NCBI GenBank assembly: GCA_027487685.1
Contig: JAIYDC010000015.1
Coordinates: 1 to 40,221, forward strand
Direction: 5' to 3'
Source: Pseudomonadota bacterium
GTDB taxonomy: Bacteria > Bdellovibrionota > Bacteriovoracia > Bacteriovoracales > Bacteriovoracaceae
Length of the DNA: 40,221 nucleotides
In this document: positions 4,315 through 34,973 of the stretch, piece after piece
How the letters are laid out: every line of letters begins with the position of its first letter
How positions within the stretch are numbered: position 1 is the first letter of the stretch
The notes under the pieces: generated by a model
Database searches by the model: none
What the model saw: the letters and a program-made list of their open reading frames with translations, nothing else
What the model was told of the DNA's origin: nothing
Translations under genes and position numbers: made by a program

Positions 4315-4523
4315 CTTCCTCTAGGATTCCAATACTTTAGTTTGCATCTGCCTATTCAACTTAGAAATGTACGGAGCAGGTTTCTTTGCAAGTGACTGAT
4401 ATTACGTAAAGGGCCAAGAGCAGTATCACAGGAAATTGGGCTAAAGTTCAGTAAAGTGATGATTACGCCGATAAAGAAGAAGTGATTGACTCTAGTATTG
4501 TAAGGCGTCCCATTCTCAAGACT

Positions 4524-7500
4524 ATGCCACGGCTTTTTGGACAGCTGGTCTTTTTGATCATGGCCTTCATGACCTTAAATGCTTGTAAGGTAGATCTATC
4601 TGAGGAAGAAAAAAATGCTCTCTCTCTTAAGGGCCTAGACCCGATCTATCGAGCAGGCGATACCCTTAATATTAACCTAGGAAAAGAGGGGAAGTTCAAA
4701 AAACTCATTTTCCAGTATGCGTCCGATGGCGAAAATTTTGAAACAATTAGAACTTTCCGTACTGCTCCCAAAACTATTTCCTGGACCGTACCCTCAACCT
4801 CCACCGTTAAAGGTAAAGTTAGGATCTTAGGTTACGGTGATGATAAGGACTTAAAGATAGCTGTCAGTTCTTCGTTTAGAATTGTTTCGACCATGGAGCT
4901 TTGGTCTGGGAACCTCAACATCCTAGGCACTGCCGATGGCACGGGGAGCGACGCTCGTTTGATGTCTCCCGAGGCCATGGTGAAAGTTGGTTCCTCTGTT
5001 TATCTCGCAGATAGAAATGCGATAAGGAAGATTGATATTAGTGACCCTACAAATCCATCTCTTACGACAATCGCGGGCAGTACTGATCTTCCAGGCACCC
5101 TTGATGGAGTTGGACTTGAAGCAAGGTTTAATTTAATCCAGGGCCTCGCTTCAGATGGAGCTTCTCTATATATAGCTGATTTTGGGAATCACACGATCCG
5201 TAAAATGGACTTGTCGACCTTGGAAGTAACGACCTTGGCCGGCGTGGCAGGAACTATAGGATCATCCGATGGAGTTGGTGCGAGTGCCCTCTTTAATGGC
5301 CCATTTGGCGTCATCTTTATGGGGGGAAATCTTTATGTGACCGATTATTCTAACCACAGAGTTAGGAAAGTAAGTCCTTCAGGGACAGTTACAACCTTTG
5401 CAGGGTCTGTAAGCGGTATCGTAAATCATGGAACTAACCCCCTGCTTGCGAGATTCAATTTACCCGGCGCTATTACTCATGATGGCAGCGCCCTTTATAT
5501 TTTCGATGGAAACAGAGTCATCCGCAAGATTGACATCACAAGCGGTGCTGTCACGACCCTCTCGGGCTCCCAGAGAATTGGTTGGAGCAACGGTGCTTCT
5601 GCAACAGACGTGAACTTTTGGTTGGTTCGAAGTATGATCTATGAAGGAGGTTACCTTTACGTCGCTGACAATGGGACTGGCATTGTTAAAAAAGTTGATG
5701 CGATTACGGGTATTGCCACGAACCTTGCGGGAATAGGTGGTGACGCTAGCGGTGATGTCGACGGTGTAGGAAGCAGTGCTCGAATCGGCGGGGTCAGTGG
5801 AATTGTATTAGTTGAACCGGATCTGATTTTTATAAATACAAAGACCTCAAGAAAGATAAAAAGAATAGTTCTTTCGACAGGCGCCGTGAGTTCCATCCTA
5901 GGGCCTTCAGGAAGTTTAACTTATGCCTACAATAGTGAGAATGTAGCGGTCCTAATGCCTACATATGGTCTTTATGTTGATGGCAATGAAGTTTACTTTA
6001 CAGAGGACCACTCCCACACCATTCGCAAAATCAATCTCACGTCTGATAGTGTCAGTCATTTCGCCGGAGTCCCTGGACAAACCGGTACAAACGATGGGAC
6101 GACAGCGACAGCGAGCTTTAATACTCCCACAAGCATCGTCAAGTTCGGGGCAAACTGGATCATCGCTGATACGGGTGGACACTGCATCCGCAGAATAGAC
6201 GACTTGGGAAATGTGACCACTCTTGTAGGACTGTGCGGGACTCTCGGCAATGTTCCTTCTGCTGGCACGACAGTTACTGGAGCGACGGCCCGCTTAAGAA
6301 CGCCGCGAGATCTTTGGGTTGAAGGTACAGATCTTTATGTCGCTGATTATTCCAATCATAAAATTCGCAAGGTCGATCTTTCTGATCTCAATAACATTCA
6401 GGTTTCTACTTTCGCAGGAAGTTCCGTGGGATTCCTCGATGACACAGGGATCAGCGCGAGATTCAATGGACCATGGGGCATTACAGGAGATGGTAGCTTC
6501 TTATATGTGTCAGATTACCTTGGGCACACGATTAGAAGAATAAGTTTACCAGGTGGAGTCGTCACAACTTTAGCTGGAACCTCTGGGACAAGCGGCGAAA
6601 CTAACGGTACTGGAGCCGGGGCCTTATTTAAAAACCCGGCAAGTCTCGCCAAAGATGCCAACTTTTTATATATTGCAGATTCTACCAACGGCTTGATTCG
6701 TAGAATGGACTTAATCACACTTAATGTGACAACACTGCTGGGAAACACAAACACGATCAACACTACAGCTGGAGATATGGGGACATACAGCCGATTGAGC
6801 TCACCACGAGGATTAGCTATTTCGGGTTCTAATCTATTTGTCTCGAATACCAGCGGTCGAACGATTCTTAAGGTAAGCACGTCTTCAGGATCAACCTCAG
6901 TTATCGCGGGCAAGTCTTTATCAAATGGTAGTGTTAATGGAAAAGGTCAGGACGTAATTACCAGATATAGGTCCATTACAGAGGTTGATGGGATTCTCTA
7001 CGCAACTGATTTCGACAATCACCTTATCTGGAAAATTGATTCAGCGGGCACAAGAACAGTCTTCGCTGGCAGCCAAAGAAATCCTGGCACTACAGATGGC
7101 GCCTTGCTTGCGGCCCGATTCCATAGACCTATTGGAATAACCTCCATCGGTAAAAATCTTTATGTGACCGACCGATCCAGCAGCACGATCCGTAAGATCG
7201 ACATTCAAGCATCCTCTGTTTCAACGATCGCCGGTTCCCCATTGCAAACTGGGGACAGTAACGGAATTGGCAGTGCAGCCAGATTTTATCTGCCGGAGAT
7301 GATCACGACGGATGGCACTGATTTATACATTTCCGACACCAAAAATCAGCTGATTCGGAAGTTACGCCTCAACGATCTCCTCGTGACAACTATTGCCGGG
7401 ACCTCAGGCGTTTCCGGGGTCACAAACGGACCTGGGTCGTCTGCGAGCTTCTCAGATCCCATCGGTTTAGCCTGGCTCGAAAACCATTTGTATGTTGCTG

Positions 7501-7865
7501 ATGTCTCTAACACCGTCATTCGAAAAATTGACTTATCAAATTCAAATACGGTGACCACATTGGCCGGAACCGCAGGAGTAACAGGGGTCCGTGACGGAAC
7601 TGGCGGCGATGCGCTATTCTTCGTACCGTCGGCCCTAGGGTCAGACGGGAAATACCTCTATGTCACAGATGCTTCAAATGGGATCATACGCCGGATTAAT
7701 CCTAATAACGGGGATACGACCACCTGGCTTGGAGTTCCTGAATCCCGCATAGATAAGCCAGGTGATTTATCATCCGTGAAAATCTATCGACCGATGTACT
7801 TTTCAATTACACCTAGTGGTATTTTTATAAACTCTGATCATAGGGCCCTATTCAAAGTGCATTAA
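4524..7865 (+). CDS. Giant NHL-repeat beta-propeller lipoprotein
   Basis: An exported lipoprotein of 1113 residues from the ATG at 4524. The signal ends at lipobox LNAC (Cys 21). A GTG at 4482 would add 14 residues before the signal and is less likely. Residues about 25-130 form a small beta domain. The rest is a run of about 18 NHL-type blades of roughly 50-60 residues, each following the pattern DGxGxxARFNxPxG...LYVADxxNHxIRKID...VTTLAG. NHL blades fold into beta-propellers that bind protein, glycan or nucleic-acid ligands. Eighteen blades would fit three six-bladed propellers, but that is inferred. Enzymatic residues are not obvious. Likely place: outer membrane surface or periplasm. It is monocistronic and followed by a promoter for the aminopeptidase gene. 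Confidence 0.92.
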   Translation: MPRLFGQLVFLIMAFMTLNACKVDLSEEEKNALSLKGLDPIYRAGDTLNINLGKEGKFKKLIFQYASDGENFETIRTFRTAPKTISWTVPSTSTVKGKVRILGYGDDKDLKIAVSSSFRIVSTMELWSGNLNILGTADGTGSDARLMSPEAMVKVGSSVYLADRNAIRKIDISDPTNPSLTTIAGSTDLPGTLDGVGLEARFNLIQGLASDGASLYIADFGNHTIRKMDLSTLEVTTLAGVAGTIGSSDGVGASALFNGPFGVIFMGGNLYVTDYSNHRVRKVSPSGTVTTFAGSVSGIVNHGTNPLLARFNLPGAITHDGSALYIFDGNRVIRKIDITSGAVTTLSGSQRIGWSNGASATDVNFWLVRSMIYEGGYLYVADNGTGIVKKVDAITGIATNLAGIGGDASGDVDGVGSSARIGGVSGIVLVEPDLIFINTKTSRKIKRIVLSTGAVSSILGPSGSLTYAYNSENVAVLMPTYGLYVDGNEVYFTEDHSHTIRKINLTSDSVSHFAGVPGQTGTNDGTTATASFNTPTSIVKFGANWIIADTGGHCIRRIDDLGNVTTLVGLCGTLGNVPSAGTTVTGATARLRTPRDLWVEGTDLYVADYSNHKIRKVDLSDLNNIQVSTFAGSSVGFLDDTGISARFNGPWGITGDGSFLYVSDYLGHTIRRISLPGGVVTTLAGTSGTSGETNGTGAGALFKNPASLAKDANFLYIADSTNGLIRRMDLITLNVTTLLGNTNTINTTAGDMGTYSRLSSPRGLAISGSNLFVSNTSGRTILKVSTSSGSTSVIAGKSLSNGSVNGKGQDVITRYRSITEVDGILYATDFDNHLIWKIDSAGTRTVFAGSQRNPGTTDGALLAARFHRPIGITSIGKNLYVTDRSSSTIRKIDIQASSVSTIAGSPLQTGDSNGIGSAARFYLPEMITTDGTDLYISDTKNQLIRKLRLNDLLVTTIAGTSGVSGVTNGPGSSASFSDPIGLAWLENHLYVADVSNTVIRKIDLSNSNTVTTLAGTAGVTGVRDGTGGDALFFVPSALGSDGKYLYVTDASNGIIRRINPNNGDTTTWLGVPESRIDKPGDLSSVKIYRPMYFSITPSGIFINSDHRALFKVH
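4920..7790 (+). repeat. About 18 tandem NHL blade-coding units
   Basis: Protein-level tandem repeat inside the lipoprotein gene. The recurring units are LYVAD-like, IRKID/IRRI-like and TTLAGxxG-like tripeptide-to-hexapeptide motifs spaced about 160-175 bases apart. Units near 6540-6640, 7380-7440 and 7560-7610 are closest to one another (AGTSGTSGETNGTGAGALF, AGTSGVSGVTNGPGSSASF, AGTAGVTGVRDGTGGDALF), which suggests more recent duplication at the 3' half. Units around 5680-5960 and 6720-6960 are more diverged. Confidence 0.85.
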
Positions 7866-27518: not shown

Positions 27519-28433
27519 TTATATTTTCCATTTCTTAGCAAGTAGACTCACCACCTCAAGCGCTCTCTGATCGGGAGTATGATGCTTCAGACCAAGAAGC
27601 GGCTTGGGCCTTGTGGGGATGGCTTGAGTCGAACTTAAGTTTTCCAAACAAGGAAGGAGCCGGCGTAATGAGTTTGTCGTGAGGATGAGATCGGACAAAA
27701 AATCCATCGGCAGTTGCTCGAAGAGGGCCCAACGTAGGTTGGGAAGCGTCGTAAGAATTTGCGGGAGCTGCGACCAGATCTCTTCCGGGACCTCCCCGTC
27801 ATGGGTGTCACGTCTGAAATTCTTATACATGGATCCACCGCTAACGTGCACTTCAAGCACTTTGTCCCGGTTGATCCAAGTTAGTATTTCGGACAGGCCC
27901 ATGCCGAAGTTCACAGACTGACAGAAGAGATTGTGGAGGTCTAACAGGAGATAACCGTTGACCCGTTCCCTTATGGTCTCAATAACCTCGATCTGTCTTA
28001 GGCAATCCTCCTGTGAAAGTGCTAGGGCCAGGTTTTCAATTCCCACCGGGCATTGGAACTGCGATGCAAGATAGTTTAGACGATCACACGCGAGGTCGAT
28101 CTCCTGAGGAGTGGGGGTAATAGGGAGGAAAGTACTGACTCTCGACCCCTCATGCCAATCAGCGCCATAGTGGACGGTAAAGTAATCGGGCCTGAGTCCA
28201 GCAGTGTTTTTTTGAACCGATCGGCACCAACCCTCAAGATCGAAGTCCCTGCGGAAGAGTGAAAATTTTATGGAGTGCATGAGAAGAGAGTGATTCGGCG
28301 GTAGAATTTTTTTCCGTGGAAGATCAGGATTTAATTCGATAGCACCCAGGGATCGACCAAGGGCCAGAACCCAGGCCATCGTATGGGATGCGGACCCCGT
28401 GAGGGAAAGTCCGACCTCTACCCGAGGCCGCAT
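27519..28433 (-). CDS. DUF692/UPF0276 multinuclear iron oxidase (MNIO) family enzyme
   Basis: A TIM-barrel protein of the MbnB/TglH/BufB superfamily, which uses two or three iron ions to modify peptide cysteines (for example to oxazolone/thioamide or thiooxazole). From the ATG at 28433 it is 304 residues, the usual length. Conserved landmarks: VGLSLTGSAS at the N-terminus, IELNP (Glu 33), MHS (His 53), FTVHYGADW (His 88), GIENL (Glu 133), LLLDLHNLF (Asp 165, His 167), EVHVSGG (His 196), DTHDGEVPEEIW (Asp 209, His 211) and FEQLP (Glu 239), which together supply the iron ligands. A TTG at 28442 is possible. There is no Shine-Dalgarno; the start lies inside the end of the upstream peptide gene (16-base overlap), indicating translational coupling. 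No DUF2063-like partner is adjacent. Confidence 0.93.
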   Translation of the reverse strand: MRPRVEVGLSLTGSASHTMAWVLALGRSLGAIELNPDLPRKKILPPNHSLLMHSIKFSLFRRDFDLEGWCRSVQKNTAGLRPDYFTVHYGADWHEGSRVSTFLPITPTPQEIDLACDRLNYLASQFQCPVGIENLALALSQEDCLRQIEVIETIRERVNGYLLLDLHNLFCQSVNFGMGLSEILTWINRDKVLEVHVSGGSMYKNFRRDTHDGEVPEEIWSQLPQILTTLPNLRWALFEQLPMDFLSDLILTTNSLRRLLPCLENLSSTQAIPTRPKPLLGLKHHTPDQRALEVVSLLAKKWKI

Positions 28434-28642
28434 GCAAGGCAAGGTTTACTCTCGGGCTGGGTTGGTTCTGGTTTGAGGGGTTTCTCTGGAGTCGTGGTCG
28501 AACCAGTGCCGGCTTTTGGTGTGCTGGGTTCAGATTTAACACTGCCTTCAGGAGAAGGAGAAGTTTTAATCTCCCCTAAGGCATGGGCCGACCACTGAAA
28601 AAAGATGAGCAGGGTAGAGATGCAAGATAGAATGATTTTCAT
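28418..28642 (-). CDS. Secreted small peptide with C-terminal CxxC, putative MNIO/RiPP precursor
   Basis: A 74-residue peptide. Residues 1-21 are a Sec signal (MKIILSCISTLLIFFQWSAHA). Residues 22-66 are a disordered Pro/Ser/Thr/Glu/Lys-rich spacer (for example TTTPEKPLKPEPTQPE). The chain ends KPCLACGLG with Cys 68 and Cys 71, the only cysteines of the mature part. Its 3' end overlaps the DUF692 gene start, so the enzyme is translated behind it. Known MNIO substrates are small Cys-bearing peptides, and the bufferin class carries Sec signals, so this is a strong candidate substrate. The Shine-Dalgarno is weak (AAAG near the ATG at 28642). The chance-ORF possibility is lowered by the signal peptide and the exact coupling. 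Confidence 0.8.
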   Translation of the reverse strand: MKIILSCISTLLIFFQWSAHALGEIKTSPSPEGSVKSEPSTPKAGTGSTTTPEKPLKPEPTQPESKPCLACGLG

Positions 28643-28862
28643 GACTTTATTATAAGCTCAGTTGCTAATAATGGCCGATAGAATTCTCTCATTCTGCTGC
28701 TGGCCGGAGATATGTGCCTGGATTTACATTCAGGATCAAGTTTCTATTGGCGCTCAAAGTAGTCGCTGTGATTATAAAATGACCGGCCAACCAGGGTGAA
28801 GTCTCAGAAGACTGCTTTCAAAATTAACTTAGGTGCACGATAATAGATTTTTTAGATTCACC

Positions 28863-32091: not shown

Positions 32092-33222
32092 TTAGATCGG
32101 TCGATTAAATCTAACTTCCAATCCATCCATGGATGGCAAGAGAATGGCCAGCCGAGGATTGATGGATGCCTGATGGAACTTGTTAGGAGGACCGATCCCA
32201 AAATCCATTTTGGAGATCGGAAACTTTGTACAGTTTGTGACGATCAATCCCGGGCAGCCGACATCCTCGAAAACACCGAATCCCTTTTCTTCTCTCAGAG
32301 CATAAAGGCATTGCAGTGACTGTTGAACGGATTCTCCATCGACGCTATTGATCGCACGACGAATTCCTAGGGCGATCTCTTCGATCTTCATCTCTTTAAG
32401 CGCTGCAGGATCGAACGCTGCAACGGCATCACGAATGGCGTTGCCGAAGTATGTTTCGGACAGTCCCAACGTTCTTCGGTAGTCGACCGGACACCGGATG
32501 ATGAATTTTCCCTCATGCAGGGGAACGAAGGAGTGAAAGCGCTTGGCCAGGTCTGCCATCACAATGTCATTCTTAGAAATAGAGATCCCTCGACCAACCA
32601 ATTTTGCCTGTAGAGCATCGAGTTTATTTTTTGAGTAATGAATTTTTTCCAGATGGGCATTCACTGCCGTGGCGGGTTTGGGCATAACATAGCCGGCCGT
32701 CCGGAATAGTTCGGCTTGCGCATGTCCCAGGTAGTTACCGCTTCCTCTAATAAGTTTTCCCCGATCATCGCATGGTTTGTTTATCACCGTGCCCCCACTG
32801 CATACACGGGAGAGCTCGCTTAAGAAGTGGAAGATGCTTTTGCCGTCGCCCAGCATATGAGAAAAACTGAATCCAATAAATGTCTTGGTCGGTGTCATTG
32901 TGACCTTCACGGCCAGAAGGGGTTCGCCTTCAGCGTTCTGGATTGATTGCACGAGATTTTCATTTTTCTCTGTTGAATGGAATTCGATCTCCCGTCTGGA
33001 CGAAAAGCTTCTGACATTGATAGGGGGTCCCGGTTCTAGTATGATCTCACGATCCGAAACGAATCTCATGCGGGCGCTCACCGCCGGAAAACTTAAGATC
33101 GTCCTTTGCAAGGCGATGTCGAAGGATCTTAAGTCCAGGTGACCTTTGTACTCGAAGATGTACTGAATGGTGTAAAGATTCCGACGGAAAAAATAATAAT
33201 CCATTGGTGCCAGTGGAATCAT
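32092..33222 (-). CDS. BAHD/condensation-like CoA-dependent acyltransferase
   Basis: A 376-residue acyltransferase. The catalytic HxxxDG is SHMLGDG (His 122, Asp 126). A C-terminal MDFGIGPP (Asp 340-Gly 344) stands where BAHD enzymes have DFGWGxP, and it follows an ...VTNCTKFPISK strand as in that family. This is the Transferase (BAHD) branch of the chloramphenicol-acetyltransferase-like superfamily, well known in plants and fungi and less common in bacteria. It transfers acyl groups from CoA to OH or NH2. It is the last gene of a minus-strand operon after PIG-L and wecB, with a four-base ATGA overlap, so an amino-sugar or lipid-linked sugar acceptor is inferred. Confidence 0.85.
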   Translation of the reverse strand: MIPLAPMDYYFFRRNLYTIQYIFEYKGHLDLRSFDIALQRTILSFPAVSARMRFVSDREIILEPGPPINVRSFSSRREIEFHSTEKNENLVQSIQNAEGEPLLAVKVTMTPTKTFIGFSFSHMLGDGKSIFHFLSELSRVCSGGTVINKPCDDRGKLIRGSGNYLGHAQAELFRTAGYVMPKPATAVNAHLEKIHYSKNKLDALQAKLVGRGISISKNDIVMADLAKRFHSFVPLHEGKFIIRCPVDYRRTLGLSETYFGNAIRDAVAAFDPAALKEMKIEEIALGIRRAINSVDGESVQQSLQCLYALREEKGFGVFEDVGCPGLIVTNCTKFPISKMDFGIGPPNKFHQASINPRLAILLPSMDGLEVRFNRPI

Positions 33223-33890
33223 AAACTAAATCCTCCTCTCTCGATTTCGAATACTTCTGCGAAGCGTCCGGTCATAGTCATGGTGCCACGGTAGAGAGAC
33301 AAACCCTCCACCGCATCGACGTAATTGATCTGCCCGATCTGGCTTGTATGCGCGCTGAGTGCCTTCTTTTTCATCTCTATGGTTGAACCGATATCGACTG
33401 CCGCCTGAAACTTTGGAATGGGATTCCAGACTTCGTACCCCAGTAAGGTTTGAACGGCGAATGGGCGTGAACCCGCTTCTGGATACCACGGGCCTTGTGC
33501 GGCCGTCACGGCCGCGCTTGTGAGATCATGAACAACCCTGTGATCGGGAAAATGATCGGAAGCGGCGTGCGTGAAAACAAACTCAGGCCGCAAGTTACGA
33601 AGTATTGCAATCAGCTTGATTTTGGTTTCTTTTGACACCTGGGTTATTCCATCAGGCACTCGCAAGAAGATGACGTTTTTAACCCCGAGGATTTTTGCTG
33701 CGACCTTTGCCTCGTCTTCACGTTTTTTGGCGTTCGCGGTCTTCTCCAGGTTTAAGATTCCCTCTTCTCCCGATGTGACGATCACGTAGTTTAGGTCAAA
33801 CCCATTCTCCGCCAGCCTCCTCAATGTTCCACCGCAACCGATTTCGATATCGTCAGGATGTGCCCCTAACGCCAGGATAGATCTTCTCAT
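33219..33890 (-). CDS. PIG-L/LmbE family zinc deacetylase
   Basis: A 223-residue N-acetylglucosaminyl deacetylase-type enzyme. The zinc site is AHPDD (His 11, Asp 14) plus His 117 in HFPDHR. SGEEG, KKREDEAKVAAKILGV and the FLRVPDG strand are typical of the family. Members remove acetyl from GlcNAc-linked substrates (mycothiol/bacillithiol precursors, GPI, antibiotics). Coupling by four-base overlaps to wecB upstream and the acyltransferase downstream suggests that a GlcNAc- or ManNAc-bearing molecule is deacetylated and then re-acylated. The start ATG is at 33890. Confidence 0.95.
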   Translation of the reverse strand: MRRSILALGAHPDDIEIGCGGTLRRLAENGFDLNYVIVTSGEEGILNLEKTANAKKREDEAKVAAKILGVKNVIFLRVPDGITQVSKETKIKLIAILRNLRPEFVFTHAASDHFPDHRVVHDLTSAAVTAAQGPWYPEAGSRPFAVQTLLGYEVWNPIPKFQAAVDIGSTIEMKKKALSAHTSQIGQINYVDAVEGLSLYRGTMTMTGRFAEVFEIERGGFSL

Positions 33891-34973
33891 GAAATGGCCC
33901 TCTCTATTTCTTCCGCAATCATTTCCGATGCAGGTGGTGTATACTTCGTGGCAGGAGTGGGATGGATCACATCTGTCCCCCTGAGACCCGCCAGTATGGA
34001 TTGCTGCAAATCATCCTTTCCAAGCCCCACGAGTCTTACAAGTCCTGACTCCAGACCGTCCCGGCGCTCAGTTTCCTGACGAGCAAGTAAAACCGGTTTA
34101 CCTAGAAACGTGGCCTCTTCTTGCACGCCGCCCGAATCTGTTACGACTAGACTTGAGCGCATTAAGAGAGATAAAAAGAGCGGATATTCCATAGGTTCCA
34201 TTAGCGTGACATTATCTAAGTCGCTTAGGACCTCATTAAAAGCGGCCTGCACACTGGGACCCGGGTGAACGGGACATACGAAATGCGCGTCTGAGCGTTC
34301 TAGTGCGGCCGCTCTCACACCTCGAAGCGAGTTCTTTAGAGAGTCGGCAGCTTCTCGGCGGTGTAGGGTTGTGACGACTAAAGGCTTATTCCTCCCTTGA
34401 TCGGGCATTTCGACCGGATGCTTCTTGAGAATGTAATCAACAGAATCATGAACCGTTGAACCGGTCACGGAGATATGACGGGAAGGTATTCCGCCCCTCA
34501 TCAGATTTTCCAATTCAACCGCTGTCGGCGCAAAGTGATGAAAGGCCAGTGGTGCGATGGTTTGCCGGTTAAACTCCTCGGGGAAAGGCGAATTCAGGCG
34601 GTAGGTACGCAGACCTGCTTCGACATGAAAGAACGGCACCTGATGGTAAAAGCTGGACAGCGCCGTCGCAAAGCATGTCGTCGTGTCACCATGACCGATG
34701 ATGGCGGCGGGCCTTTCGATTTTAAAGACGTTCTGAAGTTGTAGCAACAACCGGGCAGTCAGTTCCGAAAGAGATTGAGAGGGTCGCATGACATCCAGTT
34801 GGAGCGACGGTGTAATGTCAAAGGAACTTAGGGCCTTGCCAAAGTAACTCCTTGTGTTGCCCGGTCGACACCAAGCGAACCGAGTCACCAAGACGTTTCT
34901 TAAGGGCCAAATAGACTGGGGCCATCTTTATCGCCTCCGGTCGAGTTCCAATGATGATCACAATGCTTTTCAT
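33887..34973 (-). pseudogene. wecB: UDP-GlcNAc 2-epimerase (WecB), one-base frameshift
   Basis: Interconverts UDP-GlcNAc and UDP-ManNAc in the cytoplasm. The true start is the ATG at 34973 with AGGAAG about six bases upstream, reading SIVIIIGTRPEAIKMAPVY and on to TGQHKELLWQ, then out of frame to a stop. The rest lies in the next frame: ALSSFDITPSLQLDVMRPSQ, IIGHGDTTTCFATAL, FFHVEAGLRT, PFPEEFNR, TTLHRREA and TDSGGVQEEATFLGKPV. Removing one base from the GGGCC run at 34831-34835 joins them into 361 residues, normal for WecB. An internal GTG at 34891 would only make a 334-residue protein with a garbled N-terminus. All catalytic motifs are otherwise intact, so recent mutation or sequence error is likely. 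First gene of the operon. Confidence 0.92.

Follow-up and report, generated by a model that had tools for sequence, protein, structure and literature searches.

What connects a short secreted peptide to the DUF692 enzyme whose gene it runs into? The question arises at positions 27519 to 28642 of the 40,221-nucleotide stretch of DNA analysed here (the window), which span two genes on the minus strand: a 74-residue peptide ORF with a Sec signal, and an overlapping ORF for a DUF692 (MNIO) enzyme. The two genes very probably form a RiPP cassette of the ChrH/DybH (chryseobasin-like) type, in which the MNIO would convert the cysteines of the peptide's CLACGLG end to a macrocycle and a hydantoin before the peptide is exported. 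An orphan pair can thus be assigned to a RiPP class that has been characterised, with a product that is predicted exactly and is easy to measure.

The gene pair and the placement of its enzyme

A congener, G006 (Proteobacteria bacterium isolate H1_MAG_00035, contig JAIYDL010000018.1, loci L003/L060), has the same pair and is used for comparison throughout. The features of the window pair are:

27519..28433, minus strand: MNIO (DUF692) enzyme of the ChrH/DybH subfamily, 304 aa, from the ATG at 28433 (PF05114, NF050165, tree, invariant residues, AlphaFold2 model)
28418..28642, minus strand: precursor peptide gene, 74 aa, ending in CLACGLG, MKIILSCISTLLIFFQWSAHALGEIKTSPSPEGSVKSEPSTPKAGTGSTTTPEKPLKPEPTQPESKPCLACGLG (ORF; congener locus L003; 79 of 81 ChrH-type loci)
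28580..28642, minus strand: predicted Sec signal, residues 1-21, with A-H-A before the predicted cleavage site (sequence inspection; A-R-A in L003)
28421..28441, minus strand: CLACGLG core/recognition motif, residues 68-74, with Cys68 and Cys71 (invariant between the window and L003; match to CPxCGxG)
28418..28433, minus strand: gene overlap, 16 nt counted from the enzyme ATG (sequence; the same in L003/L060)

The peptide is as the sequence-only reading had described it: a 74-residue ORF with a Sec signal, a Pro/Ser/Thr/Lys/Glu spacer, a CLACGLG end and a 16-base overlap with the DUF692 gene. Residues 22-67, the spacer, are 87% P/S/T/K/E/G. The longest possible enzyme start is a TTG at 28442. 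By inspection, the signal is of the signal peptidase I type and has no lipobox. Its sole cysteine is Cys7, six residues into the peptide. A lipoprotein (DAG-RiPP) signal was considered and rejected, as there is no lipobox cysteine at the cleavage site and the signal-region cysteine is absent in L003. The 74-aa peptide has no Pfam match. Against NCBIfam NF050125 (the chryseobasin-related precursor, ChrA_rel_RiPP) it scores 11.5 bits over its C-terminal stretch only and fails the 40-bit cut-off; the Dyadobacter precursor scores 57 bits on this model, and the precursor of L030, the phylum's second ChrH-type cassette, gives no match. No second Cys-x-x-Cys-Gly-x-Gly-stop reading was found in the window's genome, and the other match to the DNA pattern ends in TGG, without a stop.

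A TATAAT lies at 28649-28654 on the minus strand, 6-7 nt before the peptide ATG, and the congener has TACAAT there. If this is a -10 box, the peptide would be translated from an mRNA with almost no leader; a -35 box to go with it was looked for and not found.

The enzyme matches Pfam PF05114 (E = 1.3e-24), and its best NCBIfam model is MNIO_ChrH (NF050165), with 135.8 bits and an E of 1.8e-39 over the catalytic domain. This is twice its score for BufB (69.4 bits), and HvfB, ApyH and MbnB follow with 55.9, 40.3 and 15.9 bits. Both leading scores are below the cut-offs of their models, which are 600 bits for the NF050165 equivalog and 310 bits for BufB. On NF050165 the Chryseobacterium enzyme passes with 706 bits, while those of Dyadobacter (L069, 390), Chitinophaga (374), Omnitrophota (343), Myxococcota (274) and L030 (148) all fail; since only the tested Chryseobacterium enzyme passes, the cut-off appears to pick out Chryseobacterium. 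On this model the greatest divergence is seen in the enzymes of the window and L030, at 136-148 bits; the others tested score 274-706. The model is labelled “chryseobactin maturase” and the product is named chryseobasin in papers, so the label is probably a naming slip. Chryseobactin is an unrelated siderophore.

The tree puts the window enzyme and its congener counterpart (L060) within the ChrH-type group, which a branch with 100/100 support separates from 32 other MNIOs of the phylum. When the tree was repeated without long-branch rows, the ChrH-type group still received an SH-aLRT of 100. The window branch joins L030 at 87/66, with long branches, and its exact position inside the ChrH-type group is unsure. 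E33, D37, H53, H88, E133, D165, H167, N168, H196, D209, H211 and E239 show no variation among the 70 aligned members. The AlphaFold2 model of the enzyme (pLDDT 82, pTM 0.83) has the MNIO TIM-barrel, and its best PDB matches are TglH and MbnB. Identity as a bufferin, HvfB, MbnB or TglH enzyme was rejected on lower HMM scores or a separate clade, and on the lack of a partner.

The predicted product

In the ChrH/DybH subfamily precursors end in CPxCGxG, and the minimal cassette is a precursor and an MNIO with no conserved partner (Chen et al. 2025, PMC12636315). DybH is active alone, and the C-terminal heptapeptide is sufficient when fused to GFP. The two cysteines become a thioether macrocycle and a hydantoin, a change of -4 Da, and the product has no metal-chelating oxazolone or thiooxazole; the authors liken the ring to the lipid-II-binding ring of nisin-type lantibiotics. 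The Chryseobacterium product is S-methylated (+10 Da), and HymA, which ends in CPGCGLG, is modified by -4 Da (all PMC12636315).

The window pair is like DybA/DybH (Dyadobacter crusticola), ChsA/H and HymA/H in being a precursor and MNIO pair of this subfamily without a partner and with a C-terminal CxxCGxG, and HymA has the same CGLG end as the window peptide. DybA is a lipoprotein with a signal peptidase II lipobox and CPxCGxG, and DybH has the full three-helix domain; in the window the signal is of the signal peptidase I type, the motif is CLACGLG and the enzyme tail has one helix. ChrA/ChrH of Chryseobacterium share with the window a signal-peptidase-I-type signal, a long spacer, a ChrH-type enzyme and a similar C-terminal motif (ChrA ends in CPACGMG; Ayikpoe et al. 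2023, PMC10214503). ChrH differs in its length (363 aa in the family model), in S-methylating its product and in its larger operon. The window motif is the CPxCGxG of ChrA and DybA except for Leu in place of Pro at position 2, and it does not match the strict CPxCGxG pattern.

By analogy with these homologues, the cytoplasmic MNIO would recognise the C-terminal heptapeptide CLACGLG. Using O2 and a di- or tri-iron centre, it would carry out a four-electron oxidation at Cys71, and the Cys71 beta-carbon and the backbone around Gly72 and Leu73 would form the hydantoin. A thioether (thioaminal) bond from the Cys68 sulfur to what had been Cys71 would close the macrocycle, and one thiol would stay free. 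The mass is predicted to change by -4.03 Da, or by +10 Da with S-methylation as in Chryseobacterium. For the mature peptide after Ala21 the calculated monoisotopic mass is 5330.69 Da, which would become 5326.66 Da on loss of 4 H and 5340.67 Da with -4H+CH2; for a C-terminal PCLACGLG fragment the corresponding [M+H]+ values are 733.337, 729.306 and 743.322. The Sec signal would export the modified peptide and signal peptidase I would cut after Ala21, releasing to the periplasm or the outside a 53-residue Pro/Ser/Thr/Lys/Glu-rich tether with a cyclised C-terminus. Modification would come before export because the enzyme has no signal. Three points speak against this account: the Leu at motif position 2, the reduction of the enzyme's C-terminal domain to one helix, and the low scores on the ChrH and ChrA_rel models.

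The same subfamily could also give an S-methylated product (+10 Da, SAM-dependent) like that of Chryseobacterium ChrH. ChrH, and partly ArlH, yield methylated product, and the proposed route is shared (PMC12636315). We consider this unlikely for the window, however: beyond Chryseobacterium, -4 Da is the change found for most characterised members (PMC12636315), the window branch is not grouped with Chryseobacterium in the tree, and the window's genome has no ChrI-type (DUF1772) partner, though ChrI is reported to be dispensable.

The reduced C-terminal domain

The tail of the enzyme after Glu239 is 65 aa long in the window and in the congener, versus 106-133 aa in fused relatives. The model of the Dyadobacter enzyme (L069) has tail helices at 316-331, 335-344 and 359-373. 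The window model has a single tail helix, the counterpart of the last L069 helix with its conserved KW, and the two preceding helices are missing. The remaining helix is:

27525..27572, minus strand: C-terminal helix, residues 288-303, ...ALEVVSLLAKKWK (tail length; one versus three helices in the models)

The enzyme is also shorter at a second place, in the stretch from the strand at 31-34 to His53, which contains a helix in relatives. A frameshift or truncation was rejected as the source of the short tail, because the KW helix is still the last element before the stop and the congener enzyme is equally long. Of the single-chain members seen here that retain any of the C-terminal domain, the window enzyme is the shortest, which may make it convenient for tagging or for structural studies.

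The C-terminal helical domain is found family-wide and is required in MelH/MelHc (PMC12636315). The Mel cluster of Cyanobacteriota (MelA1/MelH/MelHc; PMC12636315) is like the window in its motif chemistry (as predicted for the window), its signal-peptidase-I-type signal and an MNIO without the full fused domain. It differs in that MelHc is separate and required, and in that MelA1 is a 34-kDa protein. No separate MelHc-like protein stands beside the window pair, and the window's genome (draft, 97.7% complete) gave only a chance-level match, at E = 0.33. A split C-terminal domain is mentioned in PMC12636315 for Cyanobacteriota only. The enzymes of L092, L115 and L120 end 29-34 residues after Glu239, and at each a small downstream ORF ends in a KW (or RW) helix. 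These ORFs are MelHc-like separate domains:

L092, 4680-4886: split MelHc-like protein downstream of a ChrH-type enzyme (Omnitrophota)
L115, 4491-4682: split MelHc-like protein downstream of a ChrH-type enzyme (a proteobacterium)
L120, 1442-1672: split MelHc-like protein downstream of a ChrH-type enzyme (Myxococcota)

One may ask whether the window enzyme is inactive alone or degenerating, so that it needs a partner not listed here or no longer modifies its peptide. MelH is inactive without MelHc (PMC12636315), two of the three helices are missing in the window, and the cassette is patchy, being present in 2 of the 26 genomes of the genus. Against this, the window and G006 enzymes are 65% identical, and their codon comparison (dN 0.29, dS about 2.9, saturated) indicates purifying selection on the enzyme. 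Every invariant position is kept, and both genomes share the C-terminal reduction while keeping the terminal KW helix and the exact CLACGLG. Decay or a dependence of this sort seems quite unlikely.

A functional reading of the same reduction is that a minimised ChrH-type maturase works on the Pro-less CLACGLG with one helix and no separate domain protein, and we hold this tentatively, with slightly more doubt than confidence. If it is true, most of a domain held to be essential would be dispensable, and an altered ring or oxidation outcome could result. The pair is a natural test of whether the backbone rearrangement depends on the motif Pro and on the complete C-terminal helical domain.

Related cassettes

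Three enzymes were used as queries against 84,980 species genomes. The 80 loci found came mostly from Bacteroidota, with a few from Omnitrophota, Myxococcota and other Proteobacteria, and L030 brings the total to 81. An upstream ORF ending in CxxCGxG is present at 79 of the 81 ChrH-type loci and at 0 of the 53 non-ChrH MNIO loci of the phylum. The automatic rule (an ORF at most 700 nt upstream) gave 78 of 81; L109, which was masked by an over-long predicted enzyme start, was added. This neighbourhood comparison, together with the published subfamily, lends support by homology to the earlier proposal that the peptide is the MNIO's substrate with Cys68 and Cys71 as its sites, and homology likewise favours the Sec export predicted from the sequence. 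Motif position 2 is mostly Pro, with the exceptions CLACGLG, CMKCGMG, CLSCGMG, CIACGMG, CVACGMG, CRACGMG, CNKCGLG, CGPCGMG and CITCGRG. Since Pro is replaced in other cassettes too, it is not a strict defining feature.

At L030 (1180-2538, genome G247) a peptide ending in CMKCGMG abuts a 372-aa enzyme. This cassette is like the window's in its Sec-type peptide, CxxCGxG end, ChrH-type enzyme and non-Pro position 2; its enzyme differs in having a longer C-terminal region, and the two are about 31-34% identical. The Asn after Glu133, invariant elsewhere, is Ile in the L030 enzyme, and an aspartyl/asparaginyl beta-hydroxylase gene (477-1115) lies upstream of the cassette. At L061 (3040-3775) three successive short ORFs, ending in CPACGRG, CGPCGMG and CNKCGLG, precede one ChrH-type enzyme, and two or three precursors per locus are also present in L071, L093, L117, L119 and L123. 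Loci like L061 are possible multi-substrate cassettes.

The sequence-only reading had proposed that the pair may be a distinct minimal MNIO class, its two-cysteine tail being turned into a bufferin- or methanobactin-type group that binds metal (copper) or is redox-active, and had thought the absence of a partner unusual. Two cysteines, a Sec signal for export and an MNIO enzyme are indeed common to the window pair and the bufferins (BufA/BufB/BufC), and the Leu for Pro and the reduced C-terminal domain leave room for other chemistry. The bufferins differ, however, in their enzyme clade, DUF2063-type partner, thiooxazole product and copper role. The window enzyme joins the ChrH-type enzymes at full support, and the spacing, CG and terminal xG of its peptide's motif are those of ChrA and DybA. 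The hunt for a partner gene elsewhere in the window's genome (draft, 97.7% complete) found no DUF2063, just as it found no DUF1772 or MelHc match. A separate class with such a tail is thus improbable. Two-gene CxxCGxG cassettes are the norm in the ChrH/DybH subfamily, partner-free cassettes are normal there (PMC12636315), and the product known for it is a macrocycle plus hydantoin, which lends no support to a copper-binding or bufferin-like tail. The window pair is a divergent member of this described class (the chryseobasin/DybA type) whose enzyme is trimmed and whose motif lacks the Pro, and it extends the ChrH/DybH class past the clades characterised so far.

Across the 369 genomes of the phylum, the only clear ChrH-type matches score 148, 135 and 121 bits, the next best being 72, and the cassette is present in 3 of them. 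G006 is alone among the 25 searched congeners in having the pair. In the window the pair is flanked by genes for a pirin, an RsmC-like methyltransferase and an SMP-30-like protein, and in G006 likewise by the pirin and RsmC-like genes. In the remaining congeners the RsmC-like gene, where found, has neither the pirin nor the cassette within the up to 1.5 kb fetched on each side. The neighbours gave no functional clue because their arrangement is common to one congener only. The literature on MNIOs in Bdellovibrionota yielded nothing relevant.

The window and G006 peptides are 47% identical. G006 keeps the 16-nt overlap, A-x-A at residues 19-21 and the exact CLACGLG, and its spacer has diverged, so that a relative that keeps the enzyme also keeps the peptide and its CxxC, contrary to the loss that would have spoken against the earlier proposal. 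In the spacer 30 of 45 codons are changed in sense; PCLACGLG has 0 sense changes and 3 synonymous ones, which lie outside the overlap. The overlap constrains part of the motif twice, so only Pro67-Ala70 counts as independent evidence. That the pairing, overlap, A-x-A and CLACGLG are kept despite the divergence of the spacer makes the pair more than chance. That the small ORF is read by chance, or encodes a secreted peptide unrelated to the enzyme, as a low-complexity spacer without a Pfam match might suggest, has next to no probability given the pairing, overlap and motif kept in the congener and the same pairing in about 80 relatives.

Two other parts of the window were noted. At 32092-34891 on the minus strand, three overlapping genes for a PF02458 (BAHD-type) transferase, a PIG-L de-N-acetylase and a UDP-GlcNAc 2-epimerase look like a small amino-sugar or acyl-sugar pathway; PF02458 is unexpected in a bacterium. 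At 4482-7865 on the plus strand lies a gene for a secreted protein of 1127 aa, built, by eye, of NHL-like repeats.
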